Assembly (NCBI GenBank): GCA_944324475.1
Contig: CALUWK010000016.1
Location: 1-39,285, forward strand
Length of the DNA: 39,285 bases
DNA from: Candidatus Gastranaerophilales bacterium
GTDB lineage: Bacteria > Cyanobacteriota > Vampirovibrionia > Gastranaerophilales > Gastranaerophilaceae
Direction: 5' to 3'
This document shows, piece by piece, positions 2,293-27,787 of the stretch. Positions within the stretch are counted from its first letter, which is position 1. Each line of letters begins with the position of its first letter. The notes under the pieces were generated by a model that made no database searches, had not been told where the DNA came from, and worked only from the letters and a program-made list of their open reading frames with translations. Made by a program: the position numbers and the translations under genes.

Positions 2293-2499
2293 ATGGCTAA
2301 AAAAGCAATGATTAATAAAGAACAAAGAAGAGAAGCTTTGGCTGCTAAGGGTAAATACCCAAAAGTTAGACTTCACAATCGTTGTTCTATCTGCGGAAGA
2401 CCTCATGGTTTTCACCGTGATTTCGGAATTTGCAGAATTTGCCTAAGAAAAATGGCGCATCAAGGCTTATTACCAGGTGTCACAAAGGCATCTTGGTAA
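2293..2499 (+). CDS. rpsN: 30S ribosomal protein S14, zinc-binding form
   Basis: S14 is a late-assembly head protein of the small subunit. At 68 residues it is the short form, and it keeps two CxxC pairs (C31/C34 and C47/C50, in CSICGRP and CRICLRK), which bind zinc in type-Z S14. The C-terminus [11 protein letters not shown] is characteristic. An AAGGAG ribosome binding site precedes the ATG. It is the last gene before a strong terminator, which separates it from rpsH although the two are normally contiguous. Confidence 0.97.
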
Positions 2500-2512
2500 G
2501 AAATGCAAATTT

Positions 2513-2546
2513 AAAACAAAGACCCTTTAATAAGGGTCTTTGTTTT
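2513..2546 (+). terminator. Intrinsic terminator after rpsN, possibly bidirectional
   Basis: A 15-bp perfect inverted repeat (AAAACAAAGACCCTT / AAGGGTCTTTGTTTT) with a 4-nt loop lies 14 nt after the rpsN stop. The right arm ends in TTTT and the left arm begins with AAAA, so it can serve both rpsN (+) and the convergent small gene at 2599-2829 (-). It ends the upstream ribosomal transcription unit. Confidence 0.88.
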
Positions 2547-2598
2547 ACTGTTACAAATACAACAACACTAAATATATCAATATAATATTTTAATATTT

Positions 2599-2829
2599 TT
2601 AAGATTTAACTTCATGTATGCCATAGTCGGCATTTGCTCTAACAAATGCATCAGCAAAATCAGAAGATTTGCAATCCTTAAATACAAGTTCTTTATTTAA
2701 ATCATCAACCAAATGAACACTAGTACCTAAAGGTAAAATTTTAGAATTAGTACCTGAAATATATGCAATTCTATCAGTATTAACATAAGTATCCTTGCAT
2801 TTTATTAACCCACCCATAAAATTAATCAT
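2599..2829 (-). CDS. Small unknown protein encoded antisense within the ribosomal protein cluster
   Basis: The 76-residue product is not recognised. It opens with MINFMGGLIKCKDTYVNTDR and continues through IAYISG, SVHLVDDLNKELVFKD and ADAFVRA to IHEVKS. The pattern of short beta strands (YVNTDRIAYI, TSVHLVDD, ELVFKD) followed by a helix resembles small beta-rich domains such as FlbD-like proteins, but I cannot assign it. A ribosome binding site AGAAAGGA lies 11 nt before the ATG on the minus strand. It points against the surrounding ribosomal genes and shares the terminator at 2513-2546 with rpsN. A TATAAT-like -10 for it may lie at 2873-2878 (minus strand), though no good -35 was found. Confidence 0.72.
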   Translation of the reverse strand: MINFMGGLIKCKDTYVNTDRIAYISGTNSKILPLGTSVHLVDDLNKELVFKDCKSSDFADAFVRANADYGIHEVKS

Positions 2830-2958
2830 ATGAATTTCAATCCTTTCTAATAAAAACTACATGAATACAAAAATTATAATTATTTTTACTCGCTACATGT
2901 ATAAAAAAATTAATAAAATTTAACAAATATTTGCAAAAAAAATATGTTTAAAATAAGA

Positions 2959-2997
2959 TATAATAGCTTACACTAAACTACAAGGCTTATGTCCTTG
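2959..2997 (+). promoter_or_regulatory. Probable rpsH promoter -10 and 5' UTR hairpin
   Basis: A perfect TATAAT (2959-2964) lies about 50 nt before the rpsH start, in the only gap where the ribosomal cluster could restart after the antisense gene. The -35 is poor: TTGCAA at 2931-2936 is 22 nt away, too far for a good match. Downstream, CAAGG/CCTTG with a 7-nt loop (2981-2997) would form a small hairpin in the leader, and the GAAAGGA ribosome binding site follows it. Confidence 0.5.
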
Positions 2998-3016
2998 CAA
3001 GTAGAAAGGAAAACAA

Positions 3017-3412
3017 ATGACAATCAATGATCCAATTTCAGACGCTCTAACGCGTATTAGAAATGCAAATTTAGTAAAACATGAAAATGTTTCAATGCCG
3101 CACTCAAACTTAAAAGAAGAATTAATTAAAGTTCTTCAAAAAGAAGGTTACATTGAATCATATCTTGTTGAAGAAAAAAACAAATTTAAATTTATCAATG
3201 TAACTCTCAAATATCAAAACAATCAACCTGTAATTACAGGTTTACAAAGAGTTTCAAAACCAGGTTTAAGAGTATACTCAAAAGCCAAAAATATGCCAAG
3301 AGTATTTGATGGTATGGGTATTGCTGTTATATCAACATCAAAAGGTTTAATGACAGAAAAAGAAGCACGTACAAACAAGCTCGGTGGCGAAGTTCTTTGT
3401 TATGTATGGTAG
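3017..3412 (+). CDS. rpsH: 30S ribosomal protein S8
   Basis: S8 is a central-domain 16S rRNA binder, and in E. coli also the translational repressor of the spc operon. The 131 residues match the family length. The N-terminus NDPISDALTRIRNANLVKHE, the central RVSKPGLRVYSK and the C-terminal STSKGLMTEKEARTNKLGGE are diagnostic. It is separated from rpsN by a terminator, an antisense gene and its own probable promoter, so its expression may be uncoupled from rplE and rpsN. It ends in TAG. Confidence 0.98.
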   Translation: MTINDPISDALTRIRNANLVKHENVSMPHSNLKEELIKVLQKEGYIESYLVEEKNKFKFINVTLKYQNNQPVITGLQRVSKPGLRVYSKAKNMPRVFDGMGIAVISTSKGLMTEKEARTNKLGGEVLCYVW

Positions 3413-23902: not shown

Positions 23903-24000
23903 TTGTTACAATTTTTTTACATATATCACAAAAATGAACATTTTTTTTGAATTTTCGTTTTAATAAATATAAAATACAAGTGTATGTATGGAGGAAATTT

Positions 24001-24267
24001 ATGAAAAAACTTTTAGTATTAGCACTAATCGCAAGTTTTTGTTGTTCCGGAATGGTTTTGGCAAGAACAAAGTATGATTCAACAGGAAGAAATATAATAT
24101 ACGATGGCACTTTGCGAGGTCAAAAAAGAGCTGCAGAAGCACGAGCAGAAAGACAAAAGAAACTTGAAGCAGCAGCAGCAGCAAAAATGGACTATGAAGA
24201 AGCCCTAAGATCCCTTGAAGAACCAAAACCAAAAACAAATTTTTACCAAGACAGAATTAAAAAATAA
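24001..24267 (+). CDS. Small exported protein with an Ala/Lys/Glu-rich helix
   Basis: The 88-residue product is not recognised. The N-terminus MKKLLVLALIASFCCSGMVL ends in A, giving a good signal peptide with a cleavage site after VLA. The mature part starts RTKYDSTGRNIIYDGTLRGQ, then becomes a charged helix (RAAEARAERQKKLEAAAAAK) and ends KTNFYQDRIKK. The ribosome binding site GGAGG 7 nt before the ATG at 24001 decides this start over an in-frame one at 23947. A Cys pair (FCC) in the signal could be a lipobox, but the spacing is poor. It is transcribed alone and ends at a terminator. Confidence 0.82.
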   Translation: MKKLLVLALIASFCCSGMVLARTKYDSTGRNIIYDGTLRGQKRAAEARAERQKKLEAAAAAKMDYEEALRSLEEPKPKTNFYQDRIKK

Positions 24268-24315: not shown

Positions 24316-25476
24316 TTATGCAGCTATACTTACTTTTAAATTCGCTCCGATATATGATGCAGAAGAATCTATTATATATTTTGACTCAACATAACTTTTT
24401 GCTTTTTGTCTTGCTTCAGTAAATTCCATTTTATCATTTTCAATATATTGATTTGTTAATTCCGTTAACAATTTATGATAATCAAGAGCGGAAACTTTAG
24501 TTTTATTTGAATTTTCTATTTCCATTTTTTCATTCATTTCTTCTGTTTGCGCTTCTGTATAACTACCATTCAACAATCCTCCGGCACTCGCAGAACCAGA
24601 AGAAATTCTTACACCGCCGAATTTTTGATAATTGCTTGTGTCTATTTGAGCAGAAATACCAGTTAAAAGTTCATTCATAAATAACTCTTCAACTTCAATA
24701 GCTCCATTTCCGTTTGCATCGACAATCTTTATTTCAGCACCAGTTTCAGGATCTCGAACAGTAAACACTGTAACCGAACCATTTGTCAGCTGTCCACCAC
24801 CATCTGCATCGCTCTTTTTATCGTCAATAATATAAGATGTCTTAACAGATTTCCTATCTACTTCAAAACCTGCAGCTTCTAATGCTCGTCTAAAATCACC
24901 ATTTTTCACATCATTACTATTTTGAAACAAAGCCGCTATCTCTTGTTGCAATATATAATCCGCTTCACAATCAAAACTATCAATTACTTCTTGCTTTAAC
25001 TCATCTGATAGCGCAGCAGCATACTCAGCAAAATTTACTTCATTTTTACCCAATGATGTTGTCTTTAATCCTGCAGACTTCAATCTTGAGACAAATTCAT
25101 CATAACCCTGCTCTAATTCTACCTGAGTAATTTTTGAAGCTTCCTCTTGAGCATCTTCTAATTCTTGTTGCGCTAATTTTTCTTCTTCTTTTTGTTTAGA
25201 TTTATCTTTATCTGAAACTTCTTTCTTATCATCATTTAATTCTTTATCAAAAGAAAACAATGTTTGTTCAACTTCATCATATTCCGAATCTCGTTGTTGA
25301 GTATAACTGTATTGAGATAGATCCTGCACCTGAACTTGTTGAGTTTTGGGAGCAGAAGTATTTTTTTGCACTGATACCTTTTGCGTTGTTTTTTGATTAT
25401 CAGATGCAGTAGTACTTTTTGCTTTAGAACTGATAGAAGAAACATTTTTTAAAATTTTTTCTAATGTAGAACTCAT
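24316..25476 (-). CDS. Unknown protein with a canonical EF-hand calcium-binding loop
   Basis: The 386-residue product has no recognised family. Ser/Thr/Gln-rich sequence at residues 1-65 leads into an acidic, probably coiled segment (about 66-125, KEEEKLAQQELEDAQEEASK). A loop of EF-hand type, DANGNGAIEVEE (253-264), has ligands at positions 1, 3, 5, 9 and 12 and the hydrophobic I at position 8. A second Asp/Gly-rich stretch, DDKKSDADGGGQLTNG (218-233), may also bind metal. No signal peptide or membrane segment was seen. The C-terminal part is helical. It is isolated, with a terminator shared with its convergent neighbour and its own leftward promoter region at 25477-25540. Confidence 0.78.
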   Translation of the reverse strand: MSSTLEKILKNVSSISSKAKSTTASDNQKTTQKVSVQKNTSAPKTQQVQVQDLSQYSYTQQRDSEYDEVEQTLFSFDKELNDDKKEVSDKDKSKQKEEEKLAQQELEDAQEEASKITQVELEQGYDEFVSRLKSAGLKTTSLGKNEVNFAEYAAALSDELKQEVIDSFDCEADYILQQEIAALFQNSNDVKNGDFRRALEAAGFEVDRKSVKTSYIIDDKKSDADGGGQLTNGSVTVFTVRDPETGAEIKIVDANGNGAIEVEELFMNELLTGISAQIDTSNYQKFGGVRISSGSASAGGLLNGSYTEAQTEEMNEKMEIENSNKTKVSALDYHKLLTELTNQYIENDKMEFTEARQKAKSYVESKYIIDSSASYIGANLKVSIAA

Positions 25477-25551: not shown

Positions 25552-25581
25552 TTTACAAAAATTTACATTAATTGATATAAT
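25552..25581 (+). promoter_or_regulatory. Radical SAM gene promoter
   Basis: TTTACA (25552-25557) and a perfect TATAAT (25576-25581) are 18 nt apart. The -10 is extended (TGATATAAT). The start codon lies 29 nt downstream. A TTGACA at 25541-25546 is 29 nt from the same -10 and so is not its -35. Confidence 0.72.
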
Positions 25582-25610: not shown

Positions 25611-27428
25611 ATGAATAAACAAAACAAAAAAATGATTTTGATTTTTCCTCCGCAATGGACACCAATCAGCCCACATTATGCGCTCATGGCTCTTGCAGGA
25701 CAATTAAAATCAAAAGGATATAATGTTAACTGCATGGACTTAAATGTCGATTTTTATAATGAAATTTTAACAAAAGATTATCTAAATTTTATTAACGAAA
25801 AAATTAAAAAAGACTACGTAAAATTATTCACAAACATAAGAAAAATATATACAAAAGGAAAAAAAGCAGAAAAATATTCTCTTGATGAACAATGTGAAAT
25901 TTATAAGTTTGGAAAAATTAAAGAATACATATCAAAAAATGATACATATCACGAAAGAGTACCTAATACAATTCAATTTGCACTAGAAGTAATACGCTCA
26001 AAAGAAAGATTTTATCAACCTATTAATTTGATTAAAGCCATGAATATAGTAGACTACGCACTTGAACTTATATCAATAGCGTACAGCCCTCTACACATTG
26101 GTTTCGAAAGCTGTTATCACTCTTTTATGAAGCTAAATTATGAAAATATCAAACATTTTGTATTTCATAAAGAAAGCAATATTTTCTGGGATTTTTTCAA
26201 AAAAAGACTAGACGAAATAAAATCAAAAAATCCTGCATTTATAGCAATATCTCTAAACTCTTCAAGCCAATTAATACCAGGACTTACCCTAGCTTATCTT
26301 TTAAAAAAATACACCAAAGCGCATATTAACATAGGAGGGAATTTCTTCGGAAGAGTTAAAGACGAGATAATGAAAAATCCTGAATTTTCAACATTCTGTG
26401 ACTCAATATCAATAGAAGAAGGCGAAGGTCCAATTATAGAAATAGCAAAATTTGTTAATGATGAAATTCCAATAGATAAAGTCGCAAACTTAATATATTT
26501 TAAGAATAAAAAAACATATTTTACAGAAAAAATGAAACCAATAAAATTAAATGAAATGGCAAATTTAAATTTGGATGATTTTGATTTAAATAAATATTTC
26601 TGCCCAGAAATTGTGCTACCCTACCAAACATCAAGAGGATGTTATTGGGGAAAATGTACCTTTTGTGATCAAGACTTCGGGCAAGAATTCAATGTAAAAT
26701 CAATAGAAAAAGTTATATCCGAAATGCGGGAACTAAAAGATAAATATAATATAGAACATTTTGAATTTATTGATGAATCAGTGTCTCCAACATACCTGAA
26801 TGATTTATCAAAAGAACTTATGAAAACTAACTTAAAACCAAAATTCTTTTGTGATGCAAGATTAGAAACAGCATTTGATGAGACAACCCTAGAAAATGCA
26901 TCAAAAGCAGGACTAAAAATGGTTATGTGGGGACTTGAGTCTGGTTCTAAAAAAATAATGGAATCTATAAATAAAGGTATTGATTTAGATAAAAGATTTG
27001 AAATTCTTAAGAATGCAAATAAATATGGAATTTGGAATTTTGCGTTTATTTTTTTCGGCTACCCACTTGAAACCAAAGAAGACGCGAGAGAAACAATAAA
27101 AATGATTGCAGAAAACAAAGATATTATTAATTCCTATGGAAGAAGTGTTTTTACAATGGGTAAACATGCAAAAATAGCAGCAAACCCTGAAAAATTTGGA
27201 ATCACAAAAATATTTGAAAAACAAGGTGAATTCTCGCCAAGCATAGAATTTGAGTGTATTGGAATGACAAAAAAAGAACTCGATGAAATAATATTAGAAT
27301 GCAAACATAGCAGTTTAATACACTATAAAAATCCCCTTTGGATGTATTTAAGATATCGTGAATGGCTATTTTTATACATAGATAAATTTGGGCTAAATTG
27401 GGTTTCAAAATACGAAGTAAAACTATAG
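25611..27428 (+). CDS. B12-binding-like radical SAM protein with Cx4Cx2C cluster motif
   Basis: Radical SAM enzymes use a [4Fe-4S] cluster to cleave S-adenosylmethionine and start radical chemistry; the substrate here is unknown. The 605 residues begin with IFPPQWTPISPHYALMALAG, like the N-terminal cobalamin-binding fold of this class, and continue to SLNSSSQLIPGLTLAYL and NIGGNFF. The DxHxxG cobalamin-ligand motif is not seen. The cluster motif is SRGCYWGKCTFCDQDFG (C344, C349, C352), with four rather than three residues between the first two Cys. Later come EFIDESVSP, MWGLESGSKKIMESINKG and FIFFGYPLETKEDA, typical of the TIM-barrel part. It is followed after 8 nt by a small protein gene. 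It ends in TAG. Confidence 0.88.
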   Translation: MNKQNKKMILIFPPQWTPISPHYALMALAGQLKSKGYNVNCMDLNVDFYNEILTKDYLNFINEKIKKDYVKLFTNIRKIYTKGKKAEKYSLDEQCEIYKFGKIKEYISKNDTYHERVPNTIQFALEVIRSKERFYQPINLIKAMNIVDYALELISIAYSPLHIGFESCYHSFMKLNYENIKHFVFHKESNIFWDFFKKRLDEIKSKNPAFIAISLNSSSQLIPGLTLAYLLKKYTKAHINIGGNFFGRVKDEIMKNPEFSTFCDSISIEEGEGPIIEIAKFVNDEIPIDKVANLIYFKNKKTYFTEKMKPIKLNEMANLNLDDFDLNKYFCPEIVLPYQTSRGCYWGKCTFCDQDFGQEFNVKSIEKVISEMRELKDKYNIEHFEFIDESVSPTYLNDLSKELMKTNLKPKFFCDARLETAFDETTLENASKAGLKMVMWGLESGSKKIMESINKGIDLDKRFEILKNANKYGIWNFAFIFFGYPLETKEDARETIKMIAENKDIINSYGRSVFTMGKHAKIAANPEKFGITKIFEKQGEFSPSIEFECIGMTKKELDEIILECKHSSLIHYKNPLWMYLRYREWLFLYIDKFGLNWVSKYEVKL

Positions 27429-27436
27429 GAGAAAAA

Positions 27437-27787
27437 ATGGATATTTTTGAAAAAATTGGAAAAAAATTTGGAATAATAAAAGAAACATCTAAAACCGAAG
27501 AAATAATGAAACAAAGAGAGGATATAAAGCTAAATCTTGCAGTAAAATTATATGAAGCAGGTTTTTTAGATGAAGAAATAGAAACAGTGCTTGATATAAT
27601 AAAAAATGCGGAAGACGACATACAAAAAATTAAAGATAGCCTCATTGGAACAAATATCAATCCTGAAGGAGATCCGGTTAAACCTTTATATGAAGGTAAA
27701 GAAAAAATAAGAGAAAGACAAATTGAAATGCAAAAAGAAATAAATGAAGCAATAATAAGATTTCAAAAAAAACATCAAACTAACTAA
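27437..27787 (+). CDS. Small charged coiled-coil protein coupled to the radical SAM gene
   Basis: The 116-residue product is unrecognised. It is helical and highly charged: MDIFEKIGKKFGIIKETSK, then LNLAVKLYEAGFLDEEIETV and a C-terminal EKIRERQIEMQKEINEAIIR. A short non-helical segment SLIGTNINPEGDPVKPLYEG separates two helices. The start at 27437 has AGGAG 6 nt upstream, only 8 nt after the radical SAM stop; an in-frame ATG at 27398 lies inside the preceding gene. It could be a partner or scaffold for that enzyme. It overlaps the end of galE by 8 nt on the opposite strand. Confidence 0.75.
   Translation: MDIFEKIGKKFGIIKETSKTEEIMKQREDIKLNLAVKLYEAGFLDEEIETVLDIIKNAEDDIQKIKDSLIGTNINPEGDPVKPLYEGKEKIRERQIEMQKEINEAIIRFQKKHQTN

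Follow-up and report, generated by a model that had tools for sequence, protein, structure and literature searches.

What a radical SAM enzyme with an unusually spaced cluster motif acts on, and with which partners, is the question raised by a locus in the genome of a Candidatus Gastranaerophilales bacterium (1.72 Mb, 97% complete). We analysed contig 16 of this genome, a stretch of 39,285 nucleotides that we refer to as the window. A preliminary description had read the locus as a possible two-gene enzyme-partner system of unknown product. The dedicated partner withstood analysis, but the system comprises three genes; the gene for a protein that we call A had been overlooked.

Three linked genes

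The features of the locus are as follows.

24316..25476, minus strand: protein A, 386 aa, the proposed substrate (ORF; neighbour of the enzyme in the family loci), with a low-complexity N-terminal part and a conserved domain at about residues 130-279
24685..24720, minus strand: EF-hand-type loop of A, DANGNGAIEVEE, residues 253-264 (kept in the class 1 A alignment; Pfam below cut-off)
25552..25581, plus strand: promoter-like TTTACA-18-TATAAT with TG before the second hexamer (not above shuffled expectation)
25611..27428, plus strand: radical SAM enzyme (B), 605 aa (ORF list, Pfam Radical_SAM, model, 33-member family), with a Rossmann-like cobalamin-type N-terminal domain carrying a helical insert, a radical SAM barrel and a conserved C-terminal part
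25737..25754, plus strand: DLNVDF, near the expected place of DxHxxG (D-x-N-x-x-F in 33/33 loci; presumed positional equivalence)
26640..26666, plus strand: cluster motif CYWGKCTFC (Cx4Cx2C, kept as such in 33/33 loci)
27427..27431, plus strand: AGGAG, putative ribosome binding site of C, overlapping the enzyme stop codon (read from the sequence)
27437..27787, plus strand: small partner C, 116 aa, charged, probably helical (ORF list, helical moments, 33/33 loci)

The preliminary description was accurate about the gene pair: the radical SAM frame carries the Cx4Cx2C motif, and the ATG of the 116-residue partner lies 8 nt past the enzyme stop codon, behind its own ribosome binding site. A strong promoter had also been assigned to the pair. 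The string TTTACA-18-TGATATAAT does exist, with 11 of 12 matches, and by eye TATAAT is conserved in five of seven aligned upstream regions, but such strings occur at chance level in this AT-rich window (14 observed versus 15.3 +/- 3.8 in shuffles), and we rejected the promoter as evidence. A small exported-looking protein (MKKLLVLALIA...RTKYDSTGR) is encoded at 23995-24267 of the window, and look-alikes were seen by eye near the module in five loci (L042, L043, L044, L045 and L047).

We then collected relatives of the enzyme. A search with a single sequence against 97 genomes of the family yielded close relatives, at 46-54% identity, in G012 (three), G067, G036, G066 and G057, and a scan of the collection gave six further named loci. 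An enzyme profile run against 289 class genomes produced 30 matches above 900 bits in 24 genomes, the next being at 681 bits and below. Together with L044, L046 and L052, the 30 profile matches make up 33 distinct loci. C lies directly after the enzyme on the same strand in all 33 (gap -32 to 22 nt), and the expected co-occurrence of the two genes is thus borne out. A lies within 200 nt of the enzyme start in 32 of the 33 loci by profile. In the remaining locus, L113, A was absent from the default profile search and was counted from a --max search of a three-sequence file (E 1.5e-15).

The loci fall into two classes. In class 1, A is transcribed divergently from the enzyme; most class 2 loci have all three genes in one direction, an arrangement compatible with a single operon of A, the enzyme and C. 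CYWGKC predominates in class 1 enzymes, and CYWRKC or CYWHKC in those of class 2; the exceptions to this association of motif and orientation are L114 and L115, of class 1 with CYWRKC, and L049 and L113, of class 2 with a divergent A. One further locus (L057:1673-6868) holds three tandem radical SAM paralogs with the motifs CYWHKC, CYWNKC and CYWNRC.

The A profile matched 23 of the 289 class genomes, all among the 24 with the strict enzyme; the 24th, G226, holds L113. The C profile matched 25, namely these 24 and G032. Five genomes of the same genus (G021, G084, G242, G256 and G310) had none of A, enzyme and C at the thresholds used. By our tally, C and enzyme counts were equal in 24 of 24 genomes, and A outnumbered the enzyme in six (G253, G294, G295, G298, G282 and G285), with surplus A on contigs without a listed enzyme in G298 (C97) and G295 (C2); the A of G226 was missed by the profile. 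Over 32 of the 33 loci, mean identity was 55% for the enzyme, 33% for C and 28% for A, and distances correlated at 0.76 both between enzyme and C and between enzyme and A (0/2000 permutations each). This correlated divergence fits a module, yet it also follows from shared descent. A, the enzyme and C are linked and co-inherited.

Fold and cofactor of the enzyme

The enzyme belongs to the radical SAM superfamily, with 60.8 bits to PF04055 (Radical_SAM) against a cut-off of 29.5. C344, C349 and C352 are invariant across the 33 members and are spaced Cx4Cx2C instead of Cx3Cx2C; since this spacing recurs in every locus, it is not a sequencing slip. The unusual cysteine spacing noted earlier is therefore real, but we rejected it as a novelty, as Cx4Cx2C has been published for GenD1 and is also found in the sequence of queuine lyase 6p78.

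A model built from 33 sequences had a mean pLDDT of 90.8 and showed a Rossmann-type N-terminal part broken by helices at about residues 44-205. Its structural matches were OxsB (Z 21.8, rmsd 3.0, 405 residues), AprD4 (20.6), TsrM (20.6) and MgmA (19.5), which cover nearly the whole range of the model; Foldseek gave 1.3e-16 to 3.8e-14 against these folds. The alignments span residues 1-566 of the model with OxsB and 4-605 with TsrM, both of which have cobalamin-binding domains. Model alignment and strand-helix order thus place a Rossmann-type cobalamin-binding domain at the N terminus, in agreement with the preliminary description. In this confident model the enzyme carries the predicted radical SAM and cobalamin-type folds; the matches to OxsB, AprD4, TsrM and MgmA support the type of fold, which does not extend to binding. 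Both motif and fold are of known kinds.

The enzyme also matched one unnamed PHROGs family (48.5 bits). Viral contigs yielded two partial relatives at 22% identity, and plasmids four partial matches with a coverage of at most 48%; a mobile or phage origin was not supported.

Whether the fold holds cobalamin is a separate matter. The Pfam B12-binding family scored 15 bits on the enzyme against a cut-off of 32.1, and DxHxxG is absent, as had been noted; D43-x-N45-x-x-F48 stands near its place in all 33 loci. In the excerpted text of PMC8828468, Mmp10 binds B12 without DxHxxG, so the missing motif does not decide cobalamin use. The enzyme's own genome, with 21 radical SAM matches altogether, had no B12-binding domain at E 0.001 (12 of 14 controls positive) and no CobA/BtuR (7 of 14 controls positive). 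We consider it distinctly unlikely that the enzyme is a cobalamin-free one of the AprD4 type, acting on A or some other target as a dehydratase, epimerase or dehydrogenase. AprD4, which works without cobalamin, is among the best whole-chain matches (6fd2, Z 20.6), and the missing motif and these genome searches point the same way. Against this, the genome gave one weak B12-binding match at E 0.01 (17.1 bits), 23 of 30 related genomes had a match above the cut-off, most of these matches lying in frames of about 440-540 aa, and the Mmp10 precedent weakens the argument from the motif. On bound cobalamin, genome content is weak evidence in either direction.

A candidate maturation module and its rivals

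With one C per enzyme and a variable number of A, A is the likelier substrate and C the likelier helper; this is the main reason for our assignment of roles. We give close to an even chance to the reading of A, the radical SAM enzyme and C as one protein-maturation module, in which the enzyme most likely modifies A and C helps. The enzyme would use SAM radical chemistry on a cobalamin-type scaffold to install a modification on A, whose sequence is of low complexity and includes an EF-hand-type loop. C, present once per enzyme, would present A to the enzyme or stabilise the enzyme-A pair. The roles of A as substrate and of C as adaptor, and contact among the three, are inferences. Judging by named relatives, our first guess for the chemistry would be C-methylation, and our second a cobalamin-free radical reaction of the AprD4 type.

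The NCBIfam models bear on the kind of target. The best five were TIGR03975 (111.9 bits), PhpK TIGR04479 (104.7), HpnJ (77.9), TIGR04014 (74.3) and ApyD (63.4). None reached its cut-off (281.85 for TIGR03975 and 600 for PhpK), and the enzyme thus does not fall into a well-characterised family, an outcome that would have counted against the preliminary description. By name, TIGR03975 is a RiPP C-methyltransferase and TIGR04014 the methyl-coenzyme M reductase glutamine C-methyltransferase; with ApyD, three of the five act on peptides or proteins by name, which together with the match to MgmA (9ccb) speaks for the module.

PhpK and HpnJ, in second and third place, are no protein modifiers and argue against a protein target. 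They fit instead an enzyme that produces or modifies a lipid or small molecule, with A and C as accessories (scaffold, Ca2+-responsive regulator or carrier). This reading, which we place on the unlikely side, also draws on the close fold relatives OxsB, AprD4, TsrM, CysS and TokK, all of which have small-molecule or carrier-bound substrates. It is at odds with the copy numbers, since that of A varies and that of C does not, and with the neighbourhood: beside the module, no other biosynthetic gene recurs outside close relatives in the 15 loci whose neighbours we read by eye (the window, L042-L050, L052-L055 and L113). The other 18 loci were covered by the A, B and C profiles.

Returning to the maturation module, we looked at its proposed substrate. 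A ranges from 245 to 536 aa over the 33 loci. When it was modelled as a 267-aa piece, 11 of 15 ten-residue blocks in residues 11-160 had a mean pLDDT above 90. The fold had no clear match (best Foldseek E 0.14, best VIA-align Z 4.0), which does not make it new, and a PDB profile search with A gave no match up to E 1. We take the loop of A to resemble a canonical EF-hand loop, although none of the Pfam EF-hand models scored above its threshold. EF-hand_1 scored 15.9 bits on the window A domain, below its cut-off of 25.4, and at E up to 0.1 matched 7 of 24 class 1 members and 0 of 13 class 2 members; Pfam gave only weak, scattered rows on class 2 A. The two classes have in common an SFDxExD stretch and a modest homology (probability 74, E 2.7e-5, a single 53-column stretch). 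Seven columns are invariant over both, none an obvious modification target. No signal peptide of A was seen by eye.

Unrelated ORFs in four loci (L048:9255-10949, L049:10415-11020, L050:1381-2349 and 2353-3324, L058:157-1953) have an N-terminal SFKG/SFKR/SFLTG-like stretch, and this short stretch could be a common N-terminal signal.

C ranges from 101 to 222 aa. Its helical moment exceeded that of shuffles at residues 42-70 (p 0.0016) and 80-112 (p 0.046), was borderline at 1-14 (p 0.061) and showed no excess at 20-44 (p 0.88). With two of four stretches above shuffles, the coiled coil proposed earlier is plausible. The best row of a PDB profile search with C was a de novo designed protein at 3e-5, followed by 13 weaker ones (E 0.037-0.99), and Pfam gave only weak, scattered rows.

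The small size of C, its place directly downstream and its fast evolution would also suit a RiPP-like or proteusin-like precursor, with C as the substrate and A as a helper or regulator, and distant enzymes of the superfamily cluster with peptide-like ORFs of 58-69 aa. We find this very unlikely. C occurs strictly once per enzyme, the window C contains neither Cys nor Trp, its clearest motif, GTNIN, is not conserved in class 2, and C-like proteins occur without the enzyme. For both constant neighbours of the enzyme, A and C, core and leader are not distinguishable by sequence.

C-like genes without A or enzyme were found at six loci in four genomes (G018, G032, G054 and G081). Three of them (L060:8877-9224, L061:7146-7556 and L062:7609-7971, in G032, G054 and G018) lie, by eye, directly beside a SerB-like HAD phosphatase gene.

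To follow the maturation module beyond the class, we searched 386 phylum genomes; families f13, f19 and f22 yielded full-length enzyme relatives scoring 590-651 bits. Of seven such loci fetched, six had sequence on both sides (L184, L185, L186, L188, L189 and L190), and L187 ends just after the small gene. In all six, the enzyme is immediately preceded by genes for a protein with the EF loop (A') and for another that is small and charged (C'); in L189 the two are fused into one 405-aa frame. L195 (G334, f13) holds a piece of the enzyme only. A' was found in 5 of the 386 genomes, each with that enzyme; G348 (64% complete) and G334 (86%, the enzyme piece) had the enzyme and no A' match, and in G326 neither enzyme nor C' lies within about 6 kb of A' (L204). 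In L118, a C-like gene precedes the enzyme (E 0.00038) and an A-like protein follows it (E 0.0002 to the A' profile). By neighbour reading and loop pattern, L118 and the six loci of other families contradict the rule that A and C are missing beside enzymes scoring under 700 bits, which we dropped. In five f15 genomes (317-357 bits; L191-L194 and L196), profiles and loop pattern found none of A, A', C and C'. At L191:5039-7722 and L192:5051-7149, the end of the enzyme-relative frame meets, by eye, an alpha/beta-hydrolase-like gene at the place of C.

A tree of 70 rows had 40 labelled as module, L118 among them on its weak matches. These 40, the truncated L187, L117 and four f15 rows form a set of 46 (96/98). 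L117 and the four f15 enzymes lie in that clade without a module, as does the f15 locus L192, absent from the tree. The module labels need three changes, two of them forced by well-supported branches; the module may have been gained once and lost twice. The gene order of the phylum relatives differs from that of the window, with four orders and one fusion over several families. The other 24 rows, all from the window genome's family, had no A or C by profile, and several belong to clusters that combine several radical SAM genes and ORFs of peptide size.

Six loci (L051:2838-11493, L130:822-18257, L128, L129, L131 and L132) hold one or more radical SAM genes each and look like RiPP clusters; in L051, L129, L131 and L132 the peptide-like ORFs beside these genes encode 58-69 aa. 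In L130 a set of genes is duplicated at a distance of about 10.7 kb, and the enzyme pairs of the two copies are identical, possibly an assembly effect.

Taken more broadly, this would be an undescribed maturase system of cyanobacterial-phylum lineages, in which a cobalamin-type radical SAM enzyme modifies a folded EF-loop protein A through a dedicated small helical adaptor C, and whose age would account for its spread over several families. We hold this view tentatively, short of an even chance. The C-like genes found alone tell against the module reading, as do C', which has no detectable homology to C (hhalign probability 0.2%), and the modest homology of A and A' (probability 77, E 1.9e-5, in one pairwise comparison). 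The similarly modest homology between the two A classes, the lack of an obvious target among their invariant columns, the module-free enzymes L117 and f15, and the enzyme-bearing genomes G348 and G334 with no A' match count on the same side.

Comparison with known systems

What appears new here is the three-gene unit with families A and C, undescribed in the libraries and literature searched. None of the libraries used describes either family, and titles and abstracts of the open-licence literature held no description of the unit among the matches listed. To our knowledge, few radical SAM enzymes modify whole proteins instead of short peptides or metabolites. With a proposed substrate and a helper that are both constant, and with numerous natural variants, the unit offers a case that can be tested directly, and this in Gastranaerophilales, on whose biochemistry little work exists.

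Several known systems resemble parts of the module. The best-scoring named family, the TIGR03975 (rSAM_ocin_1) RiPP C-methyltransferases, matches residues 184-534 of the enzyme, including part of the cobalamin-type domain. The enzyme differs in its score, far below the cut-off, and in its surroundings: no short precursor peptide was recognised here, and the proposed substrate is a protein of at least 245 aa in every locus. Cluster spacing differs too, being Cx7Cx2C in the RiPP enzymes discussed with PoyC in the excerpted text of PMC5682303 and Cx4Cx2C in the window enzyme.

OxsB (PDB 5ul4) and TsrM (6wte) are among the top whole-chain matches at 16% identity, and their substrates are small molecules. 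AprD4, which by its entry title acts on paromamine, aligns over 399 residues (rmsd 3.6) at 17% identity. The gentamicin C-methyltransferase GenD1 is, in the part of PMC4340712 consulted, an active cobalamin radical SAM enzyme with Cx4Cx2C that acts on an aminoglycoside; the likeness to the window enzyme lies in the published motif. MgmA, the methyl-coenzyme M reductase glutamine methylase, is a radical SAM enzyme with a protein target, as we propose for the window enzyme, and aligns with it over 365 residues (rmsd 3.7) at 20% identity; the target of MgmA is presumably unrelated to A.
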